64,000 nt of DNA from Nitrospinaceae bacterium (GTDB taxonomy: Bacteria > Nitrospinota > Nitrospinia > Nitrospinales > Nitrospinaceae). Below the pieces are notes generated by a model, which had not been told where the DNA came from, searched no databases, and saw only the letters and a program-made list of their open reading frames with translations. The stretch lies in contig JANQEK010000037.1 of NCBI GenBank assembly GCA_028278405.1, positions 62,001 through 126,000 of the forward strand, given 5' to 3'. Numbering within the stretch: the first letter of the stretch is position 1; each line of letters starts with the position of its first letter. This document shows, one piece after another, positions 641-43,991 of this stretch. A program made the translations under genes and the position numbers.

Positions 641-2020
641 TTAACGATCTGATATTTGCTCGGACAACTCGTCTGCGGGGTAGGTAAGGATTTCAGAGAG
701 GGTGGGGTGGTAATGTGGCATGGTCAGCAGGTCGTTTACTGTGCCTTTGTAGTACATGACGGCAATCAGTTGATGGATCAGCTCGCCGCCTTCAGGACCG
801 GTGACATGTCCGCCGAGGATTTCGCCGTTGTTCGGGTTGCACAACAATTTTACATGGCCGTGTGTTTCGCCAAGGCATAATGACTTGCCATGGTCGTCGA
901 ACGGATAGGAAGCCGCGAGGTAATCGATCTCCTTATTCTTGCAATCTTTCTCGGTAAGGCCAACGCTGGCGACCTGCGGATCGGTGAACACAACATTCGT
1001 CGTGAGTCGCTCGTCGACCTCACGCGGTGTTTCATCCAGATGTACCGCATTCCATCCAGCGACTTCGCCCTGCTGGATGGCGATGTGCACCACCTCGTGC
1101 AGGCCGTTGACGTCTCCAACGGCAAAAATGTGTGGCTGGCTGGTTTGCATGGCGCAATCGACGCCGATGCCCCACGGTCCCATCTCCACTCCCGCCGCGT
1201 CGAGGTTCAGTCCGTCGGTATTCGGGCGGCGTCCCAGCGCGTCCAGAATACAATCCGCCGATACGGTTTTTTCTTTATCCTCGTGTATAAACCGGACGAT
1301 TTTCTGTTCCCCTATGGTTGAAACCTGCTCCAGCTTCGTTCCAGTAAACAGATTCATGCCTTCTTCCCGCAACCTCGCTTCAACCGGCCGCACCAGATCT
1401 TCATCGGTGAACGACAGGATGTGCGAACTTCGCTGGATCAGCGTGACCTGGGTGCCGATGCGTTGATAAAACTGTGCCAACTCAACCGCAACCGGTCCGG
1501 CGCCCAGCACGATCATCGACCCAGGCTGGTCTTTCAGCTCCAATACGTCATCGCTGGTCAGGTATCCTGTTTCTTCCAGGCCGGGAACGGGAATTTGGGA
1601 GATGACCGATCCGGTGGCAATGATGAACGATTTTGCCGACATCCGTTGATCGCCGGCTTCGATTTCGTTGGGTGATACGAAAGTGGCTTTGTCTTCGATC
1701 AGGGTAAAGCGAGGGTTTTTGAGTTGCCCGATGCGGTAGTCGGCAAATTCGCGGATGAGCCGCGTCTTGCGATCTATAATGGCAGCCAGATCGGCCTGGA
1801 TGTTATTCGCGGCAAGGCCGAACTCTCCGGCTCGGTGCATGAGAGCCATGATGTCCGACGAGCGTAAAATAGTTTTGGTAGGCATGCACCCGCGCAGGAT
1901 GCATAGACCCCCGAGTGGACCGGGGTCGATGATCGCGACCTTTGCACCGGCTGATTGTGCCGTATTGGCCGCGGCGTAACCGCCGGAACCACCGCCGATG
2001 ACGATGACATCGAATTCCAT
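641..2020 (-). CDS. FAD-dependent pyridine nucleotide-disulfide oxidoreductase (lipoamide dehydrogenase/mercuric reductase family)
   Basis: A 459-residue class I flavoprotein disulfide reductase of normal length. It shows the FAD-binding GGGSGGYAAA at residues 9-18, a redox-active pair C40/C45 in GGLCILRGCMPTK, a second NAD(P)H-binding GAGPVAVELA, the FAD-contacting FAVGD segment, and the C-terminal catalytic HPTLSE (H438, E443). The active-site loop begins GGLC where lipoamide dehydrogenases usually have GGTC. No lipoyl or 2-oxoacid dehydrogenase subunit lies nearby, so a role as E3 is not supported; mercuric-reductase-like or general disulfide/quinone reductase are alternatives. It lacks the N-terminal HMA domain and C-terminal CC of true MerA. 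A paralogue lies at 4232-5671. Confidence 0.85.
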   Translation of the reverse strand: MEFDVIVIGGGSGGYAAANTAQSAGAKVAIIDPGPLGGLCILRGCMPTKTILRSSDIMALMHRAGEFGLAANNIQADLAAIIDRKTRLIREFADYRIGQLKNPRFTLIEDKATFVSPNEIEAGDQRMSAKSFIIATGSVISQIPVPGLEETGYLTSDDVLELKDQPGSMIVLGAGPVAVELAQFYQRIGTQVTLIQRSSHILSFTDEDLVRPVEARLREEGMNLFTGTKLEQVSTIGEQKIVRFIHEDKEKTVSADCILDALGRRPNTDGLNLDAAGVEMGPWGIGVDCAMQTSQPHIFAVGDVNGLHEVVHIAIQQGEVAGWNAVHLDETPREVDERLTTNVVFTDPQVASVGLTEKDCKNKEIDYLAASYPFDDHGKSLCLGETHGHVKLLCNPNNGEILGGHVTGPEGGELIHQLIAVMYYKGTVNDLLTMPHYHPTLSEILTYPADELSEQISDR

Positions 2021-2155
2021 GAAACAGGTTCGGGTGAAGAGTTAGTGAAGGCCTGGGTGGCGAACCGCCACTGGTAAATTTAAAAGTTTGAATTGCGCCT
2101 AGCGATATCTTTTTGCCATGAACCTTCAGCTAGTTTCCCCTCCTCGTTAGGGGAG

Positions 2156-2680
2156 TTACTCGAAATCTTCCGGTGACAGTTTGAATTCTGTGTAGCACTC
2201 TTTCAGCAGGCTTTCGGCTGTTTCCACCATATGTAATTCCCCCAGTTCCTCAAAAAGTTTCTTGGCGATCCGCAAGTGGTGGATGGCTTCTTTCCCCTGC
2301 TTGATGGAATAATGCACCGTTGCCAGGTTACTGTGGGCGCGGGCGAAGTTGGGATCGATTTTAACAGCCTCCTGATAATGCTTGATCGAATCTTCGATCA
2401 TATTCAAAAGGTTGCAAATGAACGCCAGGCTGTAATGAGCCATGACGTCGTTCGGCTTTAGTTCCACCGCTTTTTGAAAGCAGGGCAGGGCCTTGGCGTT
2501 TTGCTGGAGTTTGCCGTAGCGGCTTCCCATGTTAAACCAGGCTCGGAAATGCTCCGGGTCCAGGGTCACGGATTGCTCATAGGCGGCGATGGCGCCTTCG
2601 TTGTCTCCGGAGCGGCCCAGCGTGAGTCCTTTCTGGAACCAGCCCTCGGCGCTTTGAGGCGTTGTTGACTCGGTTGTCAT
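2156..2680 (-). CDS. TPR-repeat protein
   Basis: A 174-residue protein made almost entirely of tetratricopeptide repeats, for example GWFQKGLTLGRSGDNEGAIA, then AWFNMGSRYGKLQQNAKALP, AHYSLAFICNLLNMIEDSIK and AHSNLATVHYSIKQGKEAIH. There is no signal peptide or membrane segment, so it is probably cytoplasmic and acts as a protein-protein interaction scaffold. The gene lies 135 bp upstream of the disulfide oxidoreductase on the same strand. No partner can be deduced. Confidence 0.85.
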   Translation of the reverse strand: MTTESTTPQSAEGWFQKGLTLGRSGDNEGAIAAYEQSVTLDPEHFRAWFNMGSRYGKLQQNAKALPCFQKAVELKPNDVMAHYSLAFICNLLNMIEDSIKHYQEAVKIDPNFARAHSNLATVHYSIKQGKEAIHHLRIAKKLFEELGELHMVETAESLLKECYTEFKLSPEDFE

Positions 2681-2904
2681 CGGGTAATCCTTGTGTCAAA
2701 AAGATTCAAAAGATCGAGTTATTGTCGGTTGAGAATGGCCCATATGCTACCCAGTTCAAGGGCCAATTGCAACCTTCAAGGGCCCTTATCTTCCTGTCGG
2801 ACGGGAAAATGCGGAAGACCCCTTGACCCCGGACGAAAAATGATTTTAAATGACATTCTCCAAATAAAAACCGTTAAACCTGTATTTTTGAGGAATTAAA
2901 CACA

Positions 2905-3180
2905 ATGGCAGTTATCGAACCGGGGTCCGAGGAGGAGCAATCGCTTTTAGCCAAGTGGATCCGGCGTGGCCGGGATTTGGTGGTAGGTACTTCCGCGATG
3001 GGAGAATCTTACCTGGATCCCAAAGTCAAACGCGAAGAGGAAGTGCAGAAGCTTTCTGAAGATTACGTGAAATTCGATCACGAGGTGGCGGAACAGCTGC
3101 CTCATTTGAAGGGTCGGTTCCGGTGGGATTTGGAAAAATACTTCCGGGATCATTTTGGTCCTTACCTTCCCATAGAATAA
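2905..3180 (+). CDS. Small protein of unknown function
   Basis: A 91-residue acidic/basic-rich soluble protein that I do not recognise. It starts MAVIEPGSEEE and has an Arg-rich patch (WIRRGRDLV) and a predicted helical C-terminal half. A GAGGAA ribosome-binding site lies about 9 bases before the ATG, which supports this start. It is followed after only 16 bases by the Rieske-like gene at 3197, so the two are probably cotranscribed and may work together. Confidence 0.65.
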   Translation: MAVIEPGSEEEQSLLAKWIRRGRDLVVGTSAMGESYLDPKVKREEEVQKLSEDYVKFDHEVAEQLPHLKGRFRWDLEKYFRDHFGPYLPIE

Positions 3181-3196
3181 TGTTCCCCGAATTGAA

Positions 3197-3520
3197 ATGT
3201 CTGAAGTTCGTCTACTAGATCTGGCTGATGCACCTGAAGAAGGCCGGGGGAAACGGATCGAACTCGATCATCCCTTTACCGAGATCCAATATGCCTTGGG
3301 GGTGTATTTTGTCAAAGGCCGTTATCTGGTGATCACCGACCAGTGCAAAAAGTGCGAATCCAGTCTTGCCGAGGGAAAATTGAATGGTATGTATGCTCTA
3401 TGCGCACGGGAGCAGCATGCGTGGCACATTAAAACCGGTCTGTTCAAATTCGACCGCACTCAGTCCATCCCCACCTATCGTGTAACCGTCAAGGACGAAG
3501 GCCTTTATATTGAGATTTAG
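3197..3520 (+). CDS. Rieske-like ferredoxin-fold protein with altered ligands
   Basis: A 107-residue protein whose layout matches small Rieske ferredoxins (NirD/biphenyl dioxygenase ferredoxin type): a beta-rich N-terminus, then CKKCESSLAEG, then CAREQHAWHIKTG, and a C-terminal IPTYRVTVKDEGLYI strand. In a true Rieske centre the first box is CxH and the second CxxH. Here the histidine of the first box is replaced by Lys (C50-K51-K52) and the second box is CxxxxH (C69, H74). C53 and H77 are additional possible ligands. A classical [2Fe-2S] centre is therefore doubtful; a zinc or no metal is possible. It is probably cotranscribed with the unknown gene 16 bases upstream. Confidence 0.6.
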   Translation: MSEVRLLDLADAPEEGRGKRIELDHPFTEIQYALGVYFVKGRYLVITDQCKKCESSLAEGKLNGMYALCAREQHAWHIKTGLFKFDRTQSIPTYRVTVKDEGLYIEI

Positions 3521-36736: not shown

Positions 36737-37768
36737 TCAAACGTCGAACGTGATGCGGTGAATACCGGATGTACCGGATGGAAATGGGTCGCGTTGGCCG
36801 TCGCGCTGGATGCCGCTGTATTGGTCGGCCGCACGGACGGCAATGGAATAGCGGCCGCGCCGGGACAGTTTCATGGGGAAGGACCAGAACACCCAGCTGT
36901 ATGGGGACAAGGGTTTTTCCAGCCGGGCGAGGGACCAGCTTTTTTCTCCGTCGGTGCTGACCTGGACGTATTGGATTCCCCGGTCACCGGAAAAGGCGAT
37001 TCCCCGGATGACGATTTTCGGGCCGCGTACCCGGGACCCGTTTTTGGGAAAGTCGATGCGCGAGATAATTTTCACTTTACCGTCGCGGGACCAGTTTCTT
37101 TTTCCCCAGTAGCCGACGTGATTTTCGTTCGACACTTCGATTTCGCGGATCCATTTGACCTGCTTGATGCCGTACAGACCGGGAACCAGTAATCTCAGGG
37201 GAAACCCGTGTTCGCGCGACAGAGGTTCGCCGTTCATGGTATGGGCCAGGAGCGCGGCCCGGTGTCGGCCCCGGCTTAGAGGAATGCTGTCGTGATAACC
37301 GTCTACTCCTTTAAAGATGAGTGTCTTGGTGAAAAAGTCCGGGTCGGCTTCGTCAAGCAAGTCCCGTAGAGAAATGCCCTCCCATTCGGCGTTGCCCAGG
37401 GCGTACCCTCCGACCGGATTGCCGATGCAGCTTAGAGTGATGATTTGTCGGACCGTGGGTCGCTTCCGGATTTGATCGAGAGACAGAGTCAGAGGCCGGT
37501 CGACTTTTCCGGTAACTTTCAGTTGCCAGCTTTCTGTATTCAGCGACTTTGGAGGACCGTGGATATCTTCAACATAAAATTCAGAGTTGGGCGTGATGGG
37601 CGTGACCGCACCTTTGGGTACGGTTGTTTTCGGCTGCATGCCGGCAACGGGAGTTATGGAATAGGAGGATTCCCCAAAAGAAAAACGGGCCGCCAGAGCC
37701 CGTAAAGGATAAACCACAAGGGACAATATACCTACCAGCAGCAAACGCAGAAACTGAAGTCGTGTCAC
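36737..37768 (-). CDS. Sulfite-oxidase-family molybdopterin oxidoreductase with dimerisation domain
   Basis: A 343-residue enzyme with an N-terminal hydrophobic signal, a molybdopterin-binding SUOX domain (TLSCIGNPVGG with the molybdenum-ligating C114; SREHGFPLRLLVPGLYGIKQ) and a C-terminal Mo-co dimerisation Ig-like domain (RGIAFSGDRGIQYVQVSTDG). This is the two-domain layout of sulfite dehydrogenase/oxidase. The start is GTG at 37768; an in-frame stop lies only nine bases further upstream. The signal begins TRLQFLR, which aligns with a Tat motif but lacks the second arginine. The gene starts 21 bases after the arsM stop and is probably in the same mRNA. Sulfite is one possible substrate; nothing seen here excludes others. 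Confidence 0.85.
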   Translation of the reverse strand: MTRLQFLRLLLVGILSLVVYPLRALAARFSFGESSYSITPVAGMQPKTTVPKGAVTPITPNSEFYVEDIHGPPKSLNTESWQLKVTGKVDRPLTLSLDQIRKRPTVRQIITLSCIGNPVGGYALGNAEWEGISLRDLLDEADPDFFTKTLIFKGVDGYHDSIPLSRGRHRAALLAHTMNGEPLSREHGFPLRLLVPGLYGIKQVKWIREIEVSNENHVGYWGKRNWSRDGKVKIISRIDFPKNGSRVRGPKIVIRGIAFSGDRGIQYVQVSTDGEKSWSLARLEKPLSPYSWVFWSFPMKLSRRGRYSIAVRAADQYSGIQRDGQRDPFPSGTSGIHRITFDV

Positions 37769-37789
37769 TGCTATTCACCCAGGGCCGGG

Positions 37790-38761
37790 TTATCCGCAAC
37801 AGGAATCATCGTCGGAGGCTTTTTCCTCGGGATCGATGATATTGAACATCTCCCGGTAAGGAGGGGAGTTGAGCAGGTTTGCGAAATCTTCGTCCACCTC
37901 GACAGGAACACCCATGGGAAACTGAATGTTCTGAAAAGTCGCAGCATGCAAAGGTCCGGAATAAATTACCCGTACTTTTCCGGGACAGCAGGATTCTTCC
38001 GCGGGTACAGCTTTGTAAGCCGTCAGAATGTAGGAGTAAAATCGGATACCCTCAACGATTTTCCACAAGTAATCTTTTTGAACGGTAAAGCCGTGGAAAT
38101 CACTCTGCTTTGAATAGCCGATGAACTCATCGAGAGTCAGTGCGCCGGAGACACATTCGCCCCACAACTCGCGGTCGTTGCGCATTTCCTGAGGAACAGG
38201 TTTGTCCGAAATGATGTCGGCGATGACGAATCGCCCGCCCGGTTTCAGGATTCTATGAATTTCCCGGAAGACTTCTTCCTTGTCTGTGGACAGGTTGACA
38301 ACGCAATTCGAGGTGACTACATCCGTCGATTGGTCGTCCATGGGAATGGATTCCAGGAATCCGTGTTTGAATTCGATGTTTTTGTACCCCAGGTTTTTGG
38401 AAACCTGTTCGGCGTTCTTGCGGGCATTGGCGAGCATGTTCTCCGTCATGTCCACGCCGGTGACTTTACCCTTATCGCCCACAATTTTTGCGGCGATAAA
38501 ACAGTCGATGCCTCCGCCAGAACCCAGATCCACCAGGGATTCGCCGGGAGCAATATTGGCCCGATTTACGGGACTGCCGCAGCCATAGGAAATATCCATG
38601 ACTTCGGAGGGAATGTGTGAAAGGTCCCCGGGATCGTAATTGACGGGGCAACACAAACTTTCTTGAGTAGCGACAGCCGCCTTGGAATAGTAATCGCGGA
38701 CGTCGTCGCGGGAGACTTTAGAGTTTGTTTCGGTTTCGGTACCGGCTCTCCTATCATTCAT
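37790..38761 (-). CDS. arsM: Arsenite S-adenosylmethionine methyltransferase
   Basis: A 323-residue enzyme that methylates trivalent arsenic. Seen are the ESLCCPVNYDP and DISYGCGSPVN segments near the N-terminus, SAM-binding motif I LVDLGSGGGIDCFIAA, the motif DVVTSNCVVNLSTDK with the conserved catalytic cysteine, and the late GECVSGAL cysteine; the protein ends DDDSCCG. The ATG at 38761 is chosen because AAGGAA lies seven bases before it; an ATG at 38794 would overlap the anti-sigma gene. It lies between the anti-sigma factor gene and a molybdoenzyme gene. Control by an ECF sigma factor as well as ArsR would be unusual for arsM. Confidence 0.9.
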   Translation of the reverse strand: MNDRRAGTETETNSKVSRDDVRDYYSKAAVATQESLCCPVNYDPGDLSHIPSEVMDISYGCGSPVNRANIAPGESLVDLGSGGGIDCFIAAKIVGDKGKVTGVDMTENMLANARKNAEQVSKNLGYKNIEFKHGFLESIPMDDQSTDVVTSNCVVNLSTDKEEVFREIHRILKPGGRFVIADIISDKPVPQEMRNDRELWGECVSGALTLDEFIGYSKQSDFHGFTVQKDYLWKIVEGIRFYSYILTAYKAVPAEESCCPGKVRVIYSGPLHAATFQNIQFPMGVPVEVDEDFANLLNSPPYREMFNIIDPEEKASDDDSCCG

Positions 38762-38790
38762 CGGAATATTCCTTTCCAATATATTATTCG

Positions 38791-39096
38791 TCAATTTGAT
38801 TGTTTTAGGGAATCTTTAATTTTAGTTCTTGCTTGTTCGCTGAGGACCGCCTTTTGTTGAGTCGGCGCCTCCTCTCCCCTCAGTTTCCGGGACAGAGCAC
38901 GGATGATTTCTAATTGTTTCTTGTAGAAACGGCACACCGTACACATCGCCAAATGGAATTTGAGCCGCAGGCGTTTTCCTAAAGAAAGGTTGTGGTCCAT
39001 CAATTCCGAGATGAGGGGAGTGGTGTCTTCGCAAGTGATGCGGAGTTTACGAGTCATCCATGTGTTAAATTTTGCCATCAATGAGTCCGACTTCAT
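38791..39096 (-). CDS. Zinc-binding anti-sigma factor (zf-HC2/ZAS type), soluble
   Basis: A 101-residue protein with the ZAS pattern: C22, then H48-x3-C52-x2-C55 (KFHLAMCTVCRFYKK), which binds zinc and clamps an ECF sigma factor. It has no transmembrane segment, so it is a cytoplasmic redox- or metal-sensing type rather than a membrane transducer. It starts three bases after the stop of the sigma factor gene, the normal gene order for such pairs. Thiophilic arsenite or oxidants could release the sigma factor by attacking the cysteines; this is an inference. Confidence 0.85.
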   Translation of the reverse strand: MKSDSLMAKFNTWMTRKLRITCEDTTPLISELMDHNLSLGKRLRLKFHLAMCTVCRFYKKQLEIIRALSRKLRGEEAPTQQKAVLSEQARTKIKDSLKQSN

Positions 39097-39099
39097 ATT

Positions 39100-39678
39100 C
39101 TATTTCTTAACATTCCAATGATGGGTTTCCAGGCACTTGCGGAGCTGATTCCGTGCACGGTGCAGAATTACCCACAAATTGGTCGGCTTAATATCCATTT
39201 CCTTACAAATTTCCTCAGAGGCCAATCCTTCTATCTCTTTTAAAACAAATATGTTACGAAATTTTTCCGACAGCCGGTCCATGCAAAGGGCCAGAGCATC
39301 CACAAGCTGTTTGTTTTCAACGGCCTTATGGGGATCGGTGTCCCAGTTTTTGGGAGCGTCCACCCAATGTCCATCGGAATGAAAAGCGTTTTCCAGAGGA
39401 TCGGAATCATCGTCCGGAGTCAACTCATAGGTTCTTTGATTTTTTAATTCCCTGAAATGGTCCAGGATTTTATGCTTGAGAATTCCGAACAACCAGCTTT
39501 TTTCCGTGGATCTTCCCTGGAAAGACCCTTTGGACTGTAGAGCAGCGAGTAGGGTAACTTGCACGATTTCCTCGGCAGCATCCGGATTTTTCACGCGGAC
39601 CAGAGTATAGCGATAAAGCATGTCGCCGTATCGATCTACCCACAAATCGCTGTTCAGGGTTTCCGGAGTTTTCACCAT
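39100..39678 (-). CDS. ECF-family RNA polymerase sigma factor
   Basis: A 192-residue sigma70-family factor. Region 2 is seen in YGDMLYRYTLVRVKNPDAAE and KSWLFGILKHKILDHFRE; region 4 has ALCMDRLSEKFRNIFVLKEI and the helix-turn-helix LASEEICKEMDIKPTNLWVI. It heads a unit of sigma, anti-sigma, arsM and a SUOX-type molybdoenzyme with gaps of 3, 29 and 21 bases. It probably directs transcription of its own operon. Divergent from arsR with 61 bases between the two starts. Confidence 0.92.
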   Translation of the reverse strand: MVKTPETLNSDLWVDRYGDMLYRYTLVRVKNPDAAEEIVQVTLLAALQSKGSFQGRSTEKSWLFGILKHKILDHFRELKNQRTYELTPDDDSDPLENAFHSDGHWVDAPKNWDTDPHKAVENKQLVDALALCMDRLSEKFRNIFVLKEIEGLASEEICKEMDIKPTNLWVILHRARNQLRKCLETHHWNVKK

Positions 39679-39702
39679 AATCCCGCTTTAAGATTGCTGT
39701 TG

Positions 39703-39738
39703 TTGACTTGCACCTCTTGAAGCTCATATACTGGCTTC
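39703..39738 (+). promoter_or_regulatory. arsR promoter with candidate ArsR operator
   Basis: TTGACT at 39703-39708 and TATACT at 39727-39732 form a sigma70-type promoter with an 18-base spacer. Transcription would begin at about 39739-39740, at the arsR ATG itself, so the mRNA is probably leaderless; no Shine-Dalgarno sequence is seen. The inverted repeat GAAGC-N10-GCTTC (39719-39738) brackets the -10 box and is a candidate operator for autoregulation. Confidence 0.55.
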
Positions 39739-39739
39739 C

Positions 39740-40069
39740 ATGGACCCGACGCCCGATGCAGGACAATGTGCAAAAATTTTAAAAGCGCTGGCCGATGAAT
39801 CGCGCCTTAAAATCGTCCGTCTTTTACTGGACGGAGAGAAAAGCGTTTCCGAAGTGGTTTATTCCCTCCAAATGGCGCAGCCTCAGGTTTCACATCACCT
39901 TTCAATTTTGAGGGGGTCTGGATTGGTGGATACGCGCAGAGAAGGTAAGAAAATCATCAATTTCATTGATCCAGAAGTCAAATATATTCTGGAAAAGAAG
40001 GAAATCGGTCTGGATCTTGGATGTTGTTCCATCCAATTTGACAAAGCTTCTAATCCTCCCACCTCCTGA
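39740..40069 (+). CDS. arsR: ArsR-family transcriptional repressor
   Basis: A 109-residue winged-helix regulator: ILKALADESRLKIVRLLLDG at 13-32 and the recognition region MAQPQVSHHLSILRGSGLVD at 45-64. It lacks the classical CxC arsenite site in the first recognition helix region; instead C10 and the pair C95/C96 (LDLGCCSIQF) near the C-terminus could form the metalloid site. Divergent from the sigma/anti-sigma/arsM/molybdoenzyme unit, which it probably represses in the absence of arsenite. The gene symbol rests on family and context, so arsenic as inducer is an inference. Confidence 0.82.
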   Translation: MDPTPDAGQCAKILKALADESRLKIVRLLLDGEKSVSEVVYSLQMAQPQVSHHLSILRGSGLVDTRREGKKIINFIDPEVKYILEKKEIGLDLGCCSIQFDKASNPPTS

Positions 40070-40135: not shown

Positions 40136-43100
40136 TTAAAAGGACTTATTTGTAGGAGTTTGTTCCCAGTGGGAGGGATACAGGCTTTTATAAATTCCGT
40201 GATTGCGAAACACGTGTTTGACGTAGCCTCGGGTTTCCGGGTAAGGAATGGATTCGACGAAAACATCCATATCTTTGATGCTGCTGAATCGGTTGAGCCA
40301 TGCCCGCAACACTTTTGGCCCGGCATTGTAGGTGATCAGAATATAAACTCCATTGCCTTTATGCTTTCGGCTGAGGTCATGAAGATACCGGACACCCAGG
40401 CGGATATTGACGTCGGGTTCGAACAGGATATCCTTGTCAAAGGTCTGATCCGGGTGAATTCGTGCGAAAAGCTGCTTCCCGGTTTTAGGCATAATCTGCA
40501 TCAATCCCCGCGCCCCTGCGGATGACAGGGAGTTCGCATTGTACATGCTCTCCTGTCGAATCAGGCCTTCGACCAACCAGGGGTCCAGATCGTATTTCCC
40601 GGCTTCTGTTTTTACATCTTCGGAATAGACTGATGGGTAAAAGTTGACCCAAAATTGACGAGGCAATTCTTTCTCGCCATGCTTGGTTTTGAAATCCTTG
40701 AATAACTGAAGCACTTGCAACGAATCGGCATAGGCCTGTGCGCGGTTGTACCAGTGAGACAACCACATGACGCCGGAAAGGTTTTTTCGAATGGAACGTC
40801 CAACCCTCAACAGTTCAATTCGGGCCTGAGTGAAATCCCTGAGTTCAATCAACTCGGAAGCGCGTTTGAAATGAAACTTTTCTCTTCGGGTTAAGGGACG
40901 CCCCGGTCGATTAAAGGAATACCCTTTTTTGTAAGAGGCTTTTCGGAAGGGTGAAGGAGTTTGCATGGATTCAGGAAGTTCTTCCTCCAGATGATTGACA
41001 GCTTCCAAACCATAGTAGGTGTAGGGAAACCGATGCGCCAAATCCTTGAACAGGATCTGAGCCTCCGAAGGTTTGCTCAGCCTTTCGGCCGTCTTGGCCA
41101 TCCAGAACAGATTTTTATCCGTGAGGTCGCCTTTGGGGGATTGGTCAAGATTGTCCTTGAACTGATCAAAGGCTTTCTGCCATTGTCCGGCTTTAAAATA
41201 AATCCAACCGATTCTCCACGCAGCCATTTCCCCCAGTAAATCTTGGCCAAACCGCTCTACAAGTGTTCTATAAGTTGCGAGAGCCTTCTCGGTCCTTCGG
41301 ACATCTTCATAAATGCGTCCCTGATACAAGAGGGCTTGCGGAACCCATTTCGAATTCGGAGATGTTTTTAAAAGCGTGTTGATGTGTCGCAGGGCCCCGG
41401 AAGGATTTCCCAGATTCCATAAGTTTCCCGCCATCAGAAAATGCGCTTCGCTGGCTCGGCGGTGGTTCGGATGTTTTTTTAAAAACTGCCTCAGAACAAT
41501 ATTGGCTTTGGACCGCTTACGAAGCCCCTTATGTGCCTCCGCCCAATAAAAATAAAGGTACGCAGGAAGAGGCTCGGCTTTCAGTTTCCTTTTGATCGTT
41601 TTGATCTCCCGGATCACGGTGGCGTAGTCGACTCTATTCAACAATGTGCGCAGGCGTGTGCGCGTTTCTCTCTTGGAGAGTGGTCGGGGAGTCAGGGAGA
41701 GATCTTGGATCATTCGATCCATTTGAACCTTCACCTGGAATCGGGCTGCAACTTCAGGGTGCCGAATATAAAGCTTTCGATACAAATTATATACCTGGTC
41801 ATAATCCTTCAAAAGCTTGGCCAACTTGATTTGGCGCTTGATGATATCGGGAATCAGGACCTTTCGTTTCTGGATGGAAAACTTTCTGGCGATCCGCTTT
41901 TCTGCTCGTCTCAATTCTTTAATGGACTTCTTGAAATCACTCAGGTTCTCGTAGGCATCGGCACGGAGCAGGTGCACTTCAGGAGTCAACAAGGTGAGCG
42001 GGTACTTTTTTAAAAGGGAGGTAGTTTGTTTTAACACCGCTTCCCATTCCTCCTCGGCTTGGTGAACGCGGGCCAGCTCAAGCTGGATGTAATCTCCCAT
42101 TTCAGGGTATTCCTTGAGAACATTGGAAAGCTGGATTTTTGCCCGCTCATTATCTTTTTGTCGGGCGTAAATTTTCCCGAGCAAAAAACGCGTTCGTTTT
42201 TGTGTTTTCGGGTCCACCCCGGTGAGAAGAAGTTTTTCAAACAGACCCTGGGCCTCACTCCATCGGCCGGAATGATATTCCTGAATGCCCGATTGAAACC
42301 ACCCTTCATTGGATGCGGAAGCGGGCGCAGGACTCCAGAAGGAGAGCCAGGCACATAGCAGAAGTGTCGCGCCGATCGGTACTCTCTTCAGAATTTTTTC
42401 TTTGATCTGAAGCGCTGTTTCTCCGGGATCAATATTCAGAGTTATGCGGTCGGCCATTTTTCTGAACCAGGTCAGTTGGCGCTTAGCAAAGTGGCGGGTG
42501 TCCCGTTTGATCTCATAGACCGCTTGGTCCAGAGGCAGGTTGTCTTCCAGGTGACGTGCCATTTGTGAATAGCCGATACTTTGAAAGGGTTTCAATTGAG
42601 AGCTGTAGCCTCTGTTCAACAGAGATTCGACTTCTTTTTTCAGCCCTGCGGTCATCATCGCATCCACTCGTTGGTCGATTTGATCGTAAAGGTGTTGACG
42701 ATCGGTTTCCAAGACGAACAGGTACGATTCAAATTCGTAATCCGTAGAGACGTCTTCCGCATGAAATTCCGAGAATTTTCGGCCCGTTTCACGATGAACC
42801 GATAATGCGCGCTCAATACGGGAAGGGTCGGTCGGCTGGATCTTTCCGGCGTATACCGGGTCGATCACTGCCAACTCGGCGTACATGGTTCGCGTTCCTT
42901 TTTCCCGGATTTCCTCTTGAACCTGGCGGCGGATTTCGGGAGACACGGAAATCGCGCAATCCCGGTTTTCCAGAAGAGTTTTCAAATAAAGCCCGGTGCC
43001 TCCCACCATGACCGGAATCTTGTTCCTGTTTCGAATTTCGCGGATATGCGTCAATGCCCGCTCTTTAAATTCGAATGCGGTGAACTCCTCTTCGGGTTCC

Positions 43101-43294
43101 AGAATGTCTACCAGGTGATGGGGAACACGCTCCCTTTCGACCTGGGAGGACTTGGCGGTCCCGATATCGAAATGCCGGTAGATCTGCATGGAGTCGGCAC
43201 TGATAATTTCAGTTCCGAAATGCTCGGCCAGGGCCAACGCGGCTTTGCTTTTACCTGAGGCGGTGGGACCGCTCAGGATAATTAAAGGAAGCAT
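40136..43294 (-). CDS. miaA: Continuous frame: tRNA dimethylallyltransferase (MiaA) joined to soluble lytic transglycosylase
   Basis: One open frame of 1052 codons holds two complete proteins. Residues 1 to about 300 are MiaA, which adds an isoprenyl group to A37 of tRNA: P-loop GPTASGKS at 9-16, ISADSMQIYR near 32-41, GGTGLYLKTLLE, and the C-terminal TRHFAKRQLTWFRK. From 303 the frame runs without stop through KRVPIGATLLLCAWLSFWS and PASA, a signal-peptide-like segment, then TPR-like helical repeats (330-850) and an Slt catalytic domain: EGLIRQESMYNANSLSSAGA with the catalytic Glu, RGLMQIMPKTGKQLF, and ITYNAGPKV. No ATG, GTG or TTG marks the second part; a CTG codon lies at 42391-42389, exactly where a signal peptide would start. 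Overlaps the upstream methyltransferase gene by 44 bases. Confidence 0.85.
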   Translation of the reverse strand: MLPLIILSGPTASGKSKAALALAEHFGTEIISADSMQIYRHFDIGTAKSSQVERERVPHHLVDILEPEEEFTAFEFKERALTHIREIRNRNKIPVMVGGTGLYLKTLLENRDCAISVSPEIRRQVQEEIREKGTRTMYAELAVIDPVYAGKIQPTDPSRIERALSVHRETGRKFSEFHAEDVSTDYEFESYLFVLETDRQHLYDQIDQRVDAMMTAGLKKEVESLLNRGYSSQLKPFQSIGYSQMARHLEDNLPLDQAVYEIKRDTRHFAKRQLTWFRKMADRITLNIDPGETALQIKEKILKRVPIGATLLLCAWLSFWSPAPASASNEGWFQSGIQEYHSGRWSEAQGLFEKLLLTGVDPKTQKRTRFLLGKIYARQKDNERAKIQLSNVLKEYPEMGDYIQLELARVHQAEEEWEAVLKQTTSLLKKYPLTLLTPEVHLLRADAYENLSDFKKSIKELRRAEKRIARKFSIQKRKVLIPDIIKRQIKLAKLLKDYDQVYNLYRKLYIRHPEVAARFQVKVQMDRMIQDLSLTPRPLSKRETRTRLRTLLNRVDYATVIREIKTIKRKLKAEPLPAYLYFYWAEAHKGLRKRSKANIVLRQFLKKHPNHRRASEAHFLMAGNLWNLGNPSGALRHINTLLKTSPNSKWVPQALLYQGRIYEDVRRTEKALATYRTLVERFGQDLLGEMAAWRIGWIYFKAGQWQKAFDQFKDNLDQSPKGDLTDKNLFWMAKTAERLSKPSEAQILFKDLAHRFPYTYYGLEAVNHLEEELPESMQTPSPFRKASYKKGYSFNRPGRPLTRREKFHFKRASELIELRDFTQARIELLRVGRSIRKNLSGVMWLSHWYNRAQAYADSLQVLQLFKDFKTKHGEKELPRQFWVNFYPSVYSEDVKTEAGKYDLDPWLVEGLIRQESMYNANSLSSAGARGLMQIMPKTGKQLFARIHPDQTFDKDILFEPDVNIRLGVRYLHDLSRKHKGNGVYILITYNAGPKVLRAWLNRFSSIKDMDVFVESIPYPETRGYVKHVFRNHGIYKSLYPSHWEQTPTNKSF

Positions 43295-43991
43295 AAATGT
43301 CCTGCATAGTTTGTGTGTAGCTGCCGTCGGGATGATAGATGGTCAATGTTTCCTCCAGAGGGATTTGAGTAGCCTCCCCTTTGACCGCTTCAACAAGGCA
43401 GATTTTCGGAACTGCTTTTTCGTGTCCAAACACCCGGACAAACCGGGTGGGATTCAACCGAACCCGTCGGAGTTGATGCATCACCTCTTCCAATCGATAG
43501 AAAGGATAAGCCAGTACGATTTTTCCTCCCGCTTTCAACAAGGGAGCACTCGCCGTGGCCAGTGATTCCAGAGTCAGAGACAGTTCATGCCGGGCGATCG
43601 CCTTTTCCCGGCAGGGATTTAGTTTTCCGCTGTTCATCTTCCGGTATGGGGGATTGCTCAAAATCCAATCGAAAGTTTCCGGTTCCCACTCTCTGGCCAT
43701 GGAGCAAAAATCCCCTTCCAGCACCTGAATGCGATGGGACCACCCGTTGGATCGCACATTGTTCAATGCACTTTGATACAAGGTGTTTTGAATTTCCAAA
43801 GCGGTGATATTCAGGTCTGCCTGGCGGCTCATCAGGAGCAGGGGAATGACACCGCACCCGGTTCCAATATCCAGAATTCTGGACCCGGAGGCCGGGCGGA
43901 CCCAGTGGGCCAGCAGAAACGGCTCGACAGAATACCGGTAGCCTTCTGGATTTTGACTGATCGCAACTTGTTCCAGGGTCTGGTTCTCCAT
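43251..43991 (-). CDS. tRNA1(Val) (adenine-N6)-methyltransferase-like protein
   Basis: A 246-residue SAM-dependent methyltransferase: motif I ILDIGTGCGVIPLLLMS, the acidic EIQ at strand 2, and the N6-adenine/glutamine-type catalytic motif LSNPPYRK. N-terminal YRYSVEPFLLAHW is typical of the TrmN6/YfiC group that methylates A37 of tRNA-Val. Its last 44 bases overlap the start of the MiaA frame, another enzyme acting on tRNA position 37, which supports a tRNA role. Other substrates of this broad group (rRNA or small molecules) cannot be excluded. Confidence 0.75.
   Translation of the reverse strand: MENQTLEQVAISQNPEGYRYSVEPFLLAHWVRPASGSRILDIGTGCGVIPLLLMSRQADLNITALEIQNTLYQSALNNVRSNGWSHRIQVLEGDFCSMAREWEPETFDWILSNPPYRKMNSGKLNPCREKAIARHELSLTLESLATASAPLLKAGGKIVLAYPFYRLEEVMHQLRRVRLNPTRFVRVFGHEKAVPKICLVEAVKGEATQIPLEETLTIYHPDGSYTQTMQDIYASFNYPERSHRLR

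Follow-up and report, generated by a model that had tools for sequence, protein, structure and literature searches.

An in-frame fusion of MiaA and an Slt-type lytic transglycosylase across an internal signal-peptide-like segment in the order of the Nitrospinaceae

In Bradyrhizobium japonicum, FbcH is a cytochrome b/c1 precursor that signal peptidase cuts at an internal signal, giving two mature products from one chain. MiaA (TIGR00174; E. coli structures 3foz and 2zm5) is ordinarily a free cytoplasmic protein of ~310 aa, and lytic transglycosylases of the Slt70 type (1qsa, 5ohu; PF01464) combine a helical superhelix with a catalytic SLT domain. Both enzymes occur in a single frame in the window, the 64,000-nucleotide stretch of Nitrospinaceae DNA analysed here (Table 1). 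The MiaA part resembles the free enzyme in its full-length domain, family score, active-site motifs and fold, but is followed in frame by a predicted signal peptide and a presumably exported enzyme. The Slt part shares the superhelix, the SLT domain and the catalytic Glu motif with Slt70-type proteins, but beyond the catalytic domain it is only weakly similar in sequence and falls below the NCBIfam equivalog cut-offs, and it has no N-terminal start of its own, being carried behind MiaA. As with FbcH, one chain with an internal export signal would yield two mature products, although the two parts of FbcH are subunits of one complex and the present gene joins enzymes of unrelated pathways. No earlier report of a MiaA-transglycosylase fusion was found in the literature searched, and the main texts of the Nitrospina gracilis genome paper (PMC3578206) and of a Nitrospinota comparison (PMC10839748) mention neither miaA nor a transglycosylase.

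Table 1. Coordinates of the fused gene, its parts and its upstream neighbor in the window, and of two MiaA-SLH fusions from another phylum
Feature	Location	Strand	Basis or remark
Fused gene miaA-slt, 1052 aa, single unbroken frame	40136..43294	-	ATG to stop; unbroken across joint in 58 order species
MiaA part (tRNA A37 dimethylallyltransferase), residues 1-303	42386..43294	-	TIGR00174 and PF01715, PDB sequence matches, fold
Linker, residues 280-303 (MiaA terminal helix)	42386..42457	-	Length conservation, dN/dS, helix in model
Internal signal-peptide-like segment, residues 304-327	42314..42385	-	Hydrophobic core and [AVTS]xA motif
Slt part, residues 328-1052 (TPR-like helical superhelix and C-terminal SLT catalytic domain)	40139..42313	-	PF01464, PDB Slt matches, fold
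Presumed catalytic Glu915 of the transglycosylase (GLIRQES)	40550..40552	-	Invariant in 45 aligned fusions; aligns with GLIRQES of 5mpq
TrmN-like methyltransferase gene, upstream	43251..43991	-	MTS domain; overlaps miaA start by 44 bases (43251-43294)
MiaA-signal peptide-SLH fusion, 510 aa	L149 (G147) 1846-3375	+	In-frame MiaA, signal-peptide-like segment, SLH domain
MiaA-signal peptide-SLH fusion, 517 aa	L150 (G353) 1250-2800	+	G353 is the only class sibling of G147

A first-pass annotation of the window had read a full MiaA at residues 1-300, a full Slt-type transglycosylase at 328-1052, a signal peptide mid-chain at about 303-327 and no stop codon between the parts, and all four points held. 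For MiaA, residues 4-283 scored 301.3 bits against TIGR00174 (equivalog cut-off 148.65), PF01715 exceeded its cut-off at residues 37-279, and a PDB search matched solved MiaA structures by sequence. The predicted structure of this part aligned to the E. coli MiaA-tRNA complex 3foz with a TM score of 0.87 over 307 columns and ends in MiaA's own last strand and helix (residues 283-304), while G9, T11, K15, D34, S35 and Q37 of the P-loop (GPTxSGKS) and DSMQ motifs were invariant in 45 aligned fusions. For Slt, PF01464 scored 75.6 bits (cut-off 21.3) at residues 896-1005, TPR-like helical repeats stand N-terminal of this SLT domain, the YNAGP motif was as invariant as Glu915, and soluble transglycosylases were matched by sequence in the PDB. 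Foldseek paired the superhelix with 6fc4, 5ohu and 1qte (Slt70 and P. aeruginosa Slt) over 671-729 columns at E ~1e-13, with a target TM of only ~0.5, and the E. coli-type Slt equivalog PRK11619 missed its cut-off (95.5 versus 536 bits); this part is thus Slt-like, other than the E. coli Slt equivalog. In the predicted structure the two parts fold as separate domains around a low-confidence joint (model confidence <50 at residues 309-330, preceded by a helix at 294-304).

The 3.16-Mb genome from which the window derives (G000) encodes one miaA, a signal peptidase I and MiaB, so the MiaA part is probably needed. A second miaA was considered and none is present. Three further SLT matches in this genome sit in other open frames.

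We sampled 64 species genomes of the order, of which 58, spanning four families, have the joint sequenced, and in all 58 MiaA and Slt lie in one stop-free frame across it. Near relatives at 80% identity include L033; a contig scan with stringent patterns had yielded only two full-length relatives. Elsewhere in the sample, the sequence of G029 stops inside MiaA and the full Slt part is also absent. No miaA match was present in G020, G033, G035, G044 or G058; a full Slt part was likewise missing from G033, G035 and G058, G020 has an Slt C-terminal match within a 585-residue frame, and the Slt match of G044 lies in an 844-residue frame and may be a paralogue. The fused gene of G061 (L123, G061:C6, 3093-6259) is split into two overlapping frames by a frameshift inside MiaA, upstream of the joint. 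That genome is 59% complete, and the frameshift is either sequencing error or decay. G050 carries two different full-length MiaA-Slt fusions (L054, L132); with 5% contamination, it may be a mixed bin. The fusion is readily usable as a molecular marker of the order, and automated annotation could easily label the gene just miaA.

Outside the order the two genes are separate. In three sister families of the same class (f7, f8 and f9), miaA has its own stop and is followed by slt in another frame, the separate Slt bearing its own ordinary N-terminal signal peptide; in one genome (G066, L092) the miaA stop and slt start overlap as TAATG. In families f5 and f6 the genes lie apart. Judged from these arrangements, separate miaA and slt are the ancestral state. 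In a MiaA tree, all 29 sampled fusions formed one clade (support 100/98), which indicates that the fusion arose once and was never undone in the sample. Adjacent miaA and slt would then have merged once in the order's ancestor as miaA lost its stop and slt its start; a single minor change that eliminated the stop and brought both into one frame explains the pattern. The first-pass idea that a lost stop or start codon merged two genes is therefore right as history, given the adjacent, separate genes in different frames in the sister families. Relatives in which miaA stops normally and slt is initiated separately, which it had held would count against a genuine fusion, do exist, but only outside the order.

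The joint of the window protein reads KEKILKRVPIGATLLLCAWLSFWSPAPASA|SNEG, a positively charged stretch, supplied by the charged end of the linker, standing before a hydrophobic core. A motif-based prediction found the features of a signal peptidase I substrate (charged n-region, hydrophobic core and small residues at -3/-1) and placed the cut after Ala327 (APASA|SN). Across the 54 fusions compared at the joint, a strict [AVTS]xA motif was present in 47 and absent from the stretch searched in 7; a looser small-x-small motif, easily met by chance, was present in all 54. Position 325 was A, T, V, S or G in 53 fusions and position 327 was A in 31, and the sequence directly after the motif was variable and indel-rich, as at a mature N-terminus. 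A conserved motif followed by variable sequence has the look of a retained signal peptidase I site, and from it we infer cleavage.

The explanation that we favor, and hold to be reasonably probable, is a genuine fusion of single origin whose one precursor uses the internal signal for export and is then cleaved by signal peptidase I. The ribosome would make one MiaA-Slt chain; MiaA would fold in the cytoplasm, and its C-terminal helix and the old Slt signal peptide would emerge next and engage Sec with the N-terminus inside. Slt would then be translocated and signal peptidase I would cut at the AxA motif, leaving MiaA with a short membrane tail (~37 kDa) and a soluble periplasmic Slt (~83 kDa), made one to one as from a small polyprotein. 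Release of Slt from a true fusion was among the options raised at first pass, and it gains support from the frame shared by 58 species and the AxA-like motif kept in 47 of 54, with cleavage itself predicted from the motif. The safest reading is a cellular polyprotein whose Slt part leaves the cytoplasm while MiaA stays inside, possibly carrying a membrane tail. In an order related to marine nitrite oxidizers, a single chain apparently acts on the two sides of the membrane, as a two-compartment polyprotein that joins unrelated pathways and is kept wherever the joint is readable. It provides a clean test case for two questions: can a cleavable signal peptide follow a folded cytoplasmic enzyme of 300 residues, and does membrane-bound MiaA still modify tRNA?

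Unlikely, in our estimate, is that the segment stays uncut as a signal anchor. The product would then be a single 118-kDa membrane protein of type II topology, with MiaA on the inner side, a lone membrane helix and Slt tethered in the periplasm. Bacterial kinases such as PrkC/PknB have such a topology, and a positive-inside arrangement would fit. An uncharged stretch of at least 18 residues occurs in 23 of the 54 fusions and one of at least 20, long enough for a stable anchor, in 14, including the window protein (24 residues). An uncut anchor, however, would not need the AxA-like motif or the variable, indel-rich stretch behind it, and the ordinary N-terminal signal on the separate Slt of relatives likewise speaks against an anchor.

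A fusion of similar design was found in another phylum. In a search of 272 genomes outside the class, none of the best ~150 matches listed had a MiaA frame >1000 aa, and two species (G147 and G353) carry MiaA, an internal signal-peptide-like segment and an envelope protein in one frame (82% identity between them in MiaA and 64% after it). The partner here has an SLH domain and is not a transglycosylase. As with MiaA-Slt, the parent genes are near neighbors in a sister family: G355 (L161), from another family of that phylum, has a separate miaA, and the product of a gene a little downstream, a TPR-SLH protein, is a homologue of the fused tail (39% over 146 aa, E = 8e-31). MiaA was thus joined to a neighboring exported envelope protein on at least two occasions, both times via an internal signal-peptide-like segment. 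Long frames in G156, G250, G243, G352, G268 and G241 were rejected as C-terminal fusions, being open frames that enter MiaA from upstream in high-GC DNA, and a 973-aa protein of G091 has no Pfam domain besides IPPT.

This second, independent case makes it harder to dismiss the question of functional coupling, in which a tethered MiaA or a fixed 1:1 ratio would link tRNA i6A37 modification to murein turnover. Such a link would fit either a cleaved or an uncleaved segment, and we consider it unlikely as matters stand. The fusion was never split again in 58 species and has a convergent counterpart in another phylum; against this, a single origin and hard reversal could fix the fusion without benefit, because the slt start signals have been lost and splitting again requires several changes. 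The convergent SLH case and the lack of reversals in the sample make a benefit of linkage plausible. More speculatively, and with a good deal of doubt, fusion of MiaA to an exported envelope protein via an internal signal peptide could be a recurrent, selected device, arrived at no fewer than two times: in the Nitrospinaceae order, where the partner is Slt, and in another phylum, where it is an SLH protein. Such a device would hold MiaA near Sec at the membrane, keeping tRNA modification and envelope remodelling in fixed proportion.

The favored reading also requires translation straight through the joint. Between residue 279, the end of the last MiaA motif (WFRK), and residue 312 lie 32 residues, a length kept in 49 of 54 fusions, and Lys300, Leu302 and Pro306 are nearly invariant. 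The linker had a dN/dS of 0.38 and the signal segment one of 0.25, compared with 0.12 in MiaA and 0.10-0.16 in Slt; by this measure the joint is looser than the enzymes and clearly constrained as protein. On the sequence comparisons as a whole we regard the fusion, its age and the keeping of the joint as protein as established.

Distinctly improbable is the alternative that the first start yields MiaA (or MiaA-Slt) and that most Slt comes from initiation within the end of miaA (at Met280, CTG 302 or another codon). The slt parent possessed its own start, and an ATG at codon 280, which would give a 48-residue signal peptide, is present in 32 of 54 fusions, the window included, making Met280 the likeliest site should internal initiation occur. 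A separately started Slt needs a start in every member, however, and no position serves: codons 277-310 are without ATG in 22 of 54 and without ATG, GTG or TTG in 10, and codons 288-312 are without all three in 24. The first-pass suggestion of a CTG start at 42391-42389 fares no better, as this codon encodes Leu302, which is Leu in 49 fusions but CTG in only 16. SD-like sequence stands ahead of candidate internal starts in only 3 of the 54, against 20 for the true start. For synonymous change the joint ranks at the 16th percentile of MiaA windows, mildly low with no clear dip, and internal initiation would leave the constant absence of a stop unexplained. A CTG or other internal start was accordingly rejected as not conserved. 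An assembly or sequencing error that removed a base or stop codon, the remaining first-pass option, has practically no chance of being correct and was rejected, because the frame recurs in 57 other species, far beyond chance, across four families and in the single-contig genomes G008, G017 and G031.

A TrmN-like methyltransferase gene precedes miaA in most fusions checked and also in some relatives with separate genes, and its overlap with miaA recurs in the relatives checked (about 40-100 bases). On the other side, the fusion adjoins a cluster at 36737-40069 of the window that resembles a molybdopterin oxidoreductase, an ArsM-like methyltransferase, a small zinc-binding-like protein, a sigma-factor-like protein and an ArsR-like regulator, much of which is syntenic beside the fusion in relatives.
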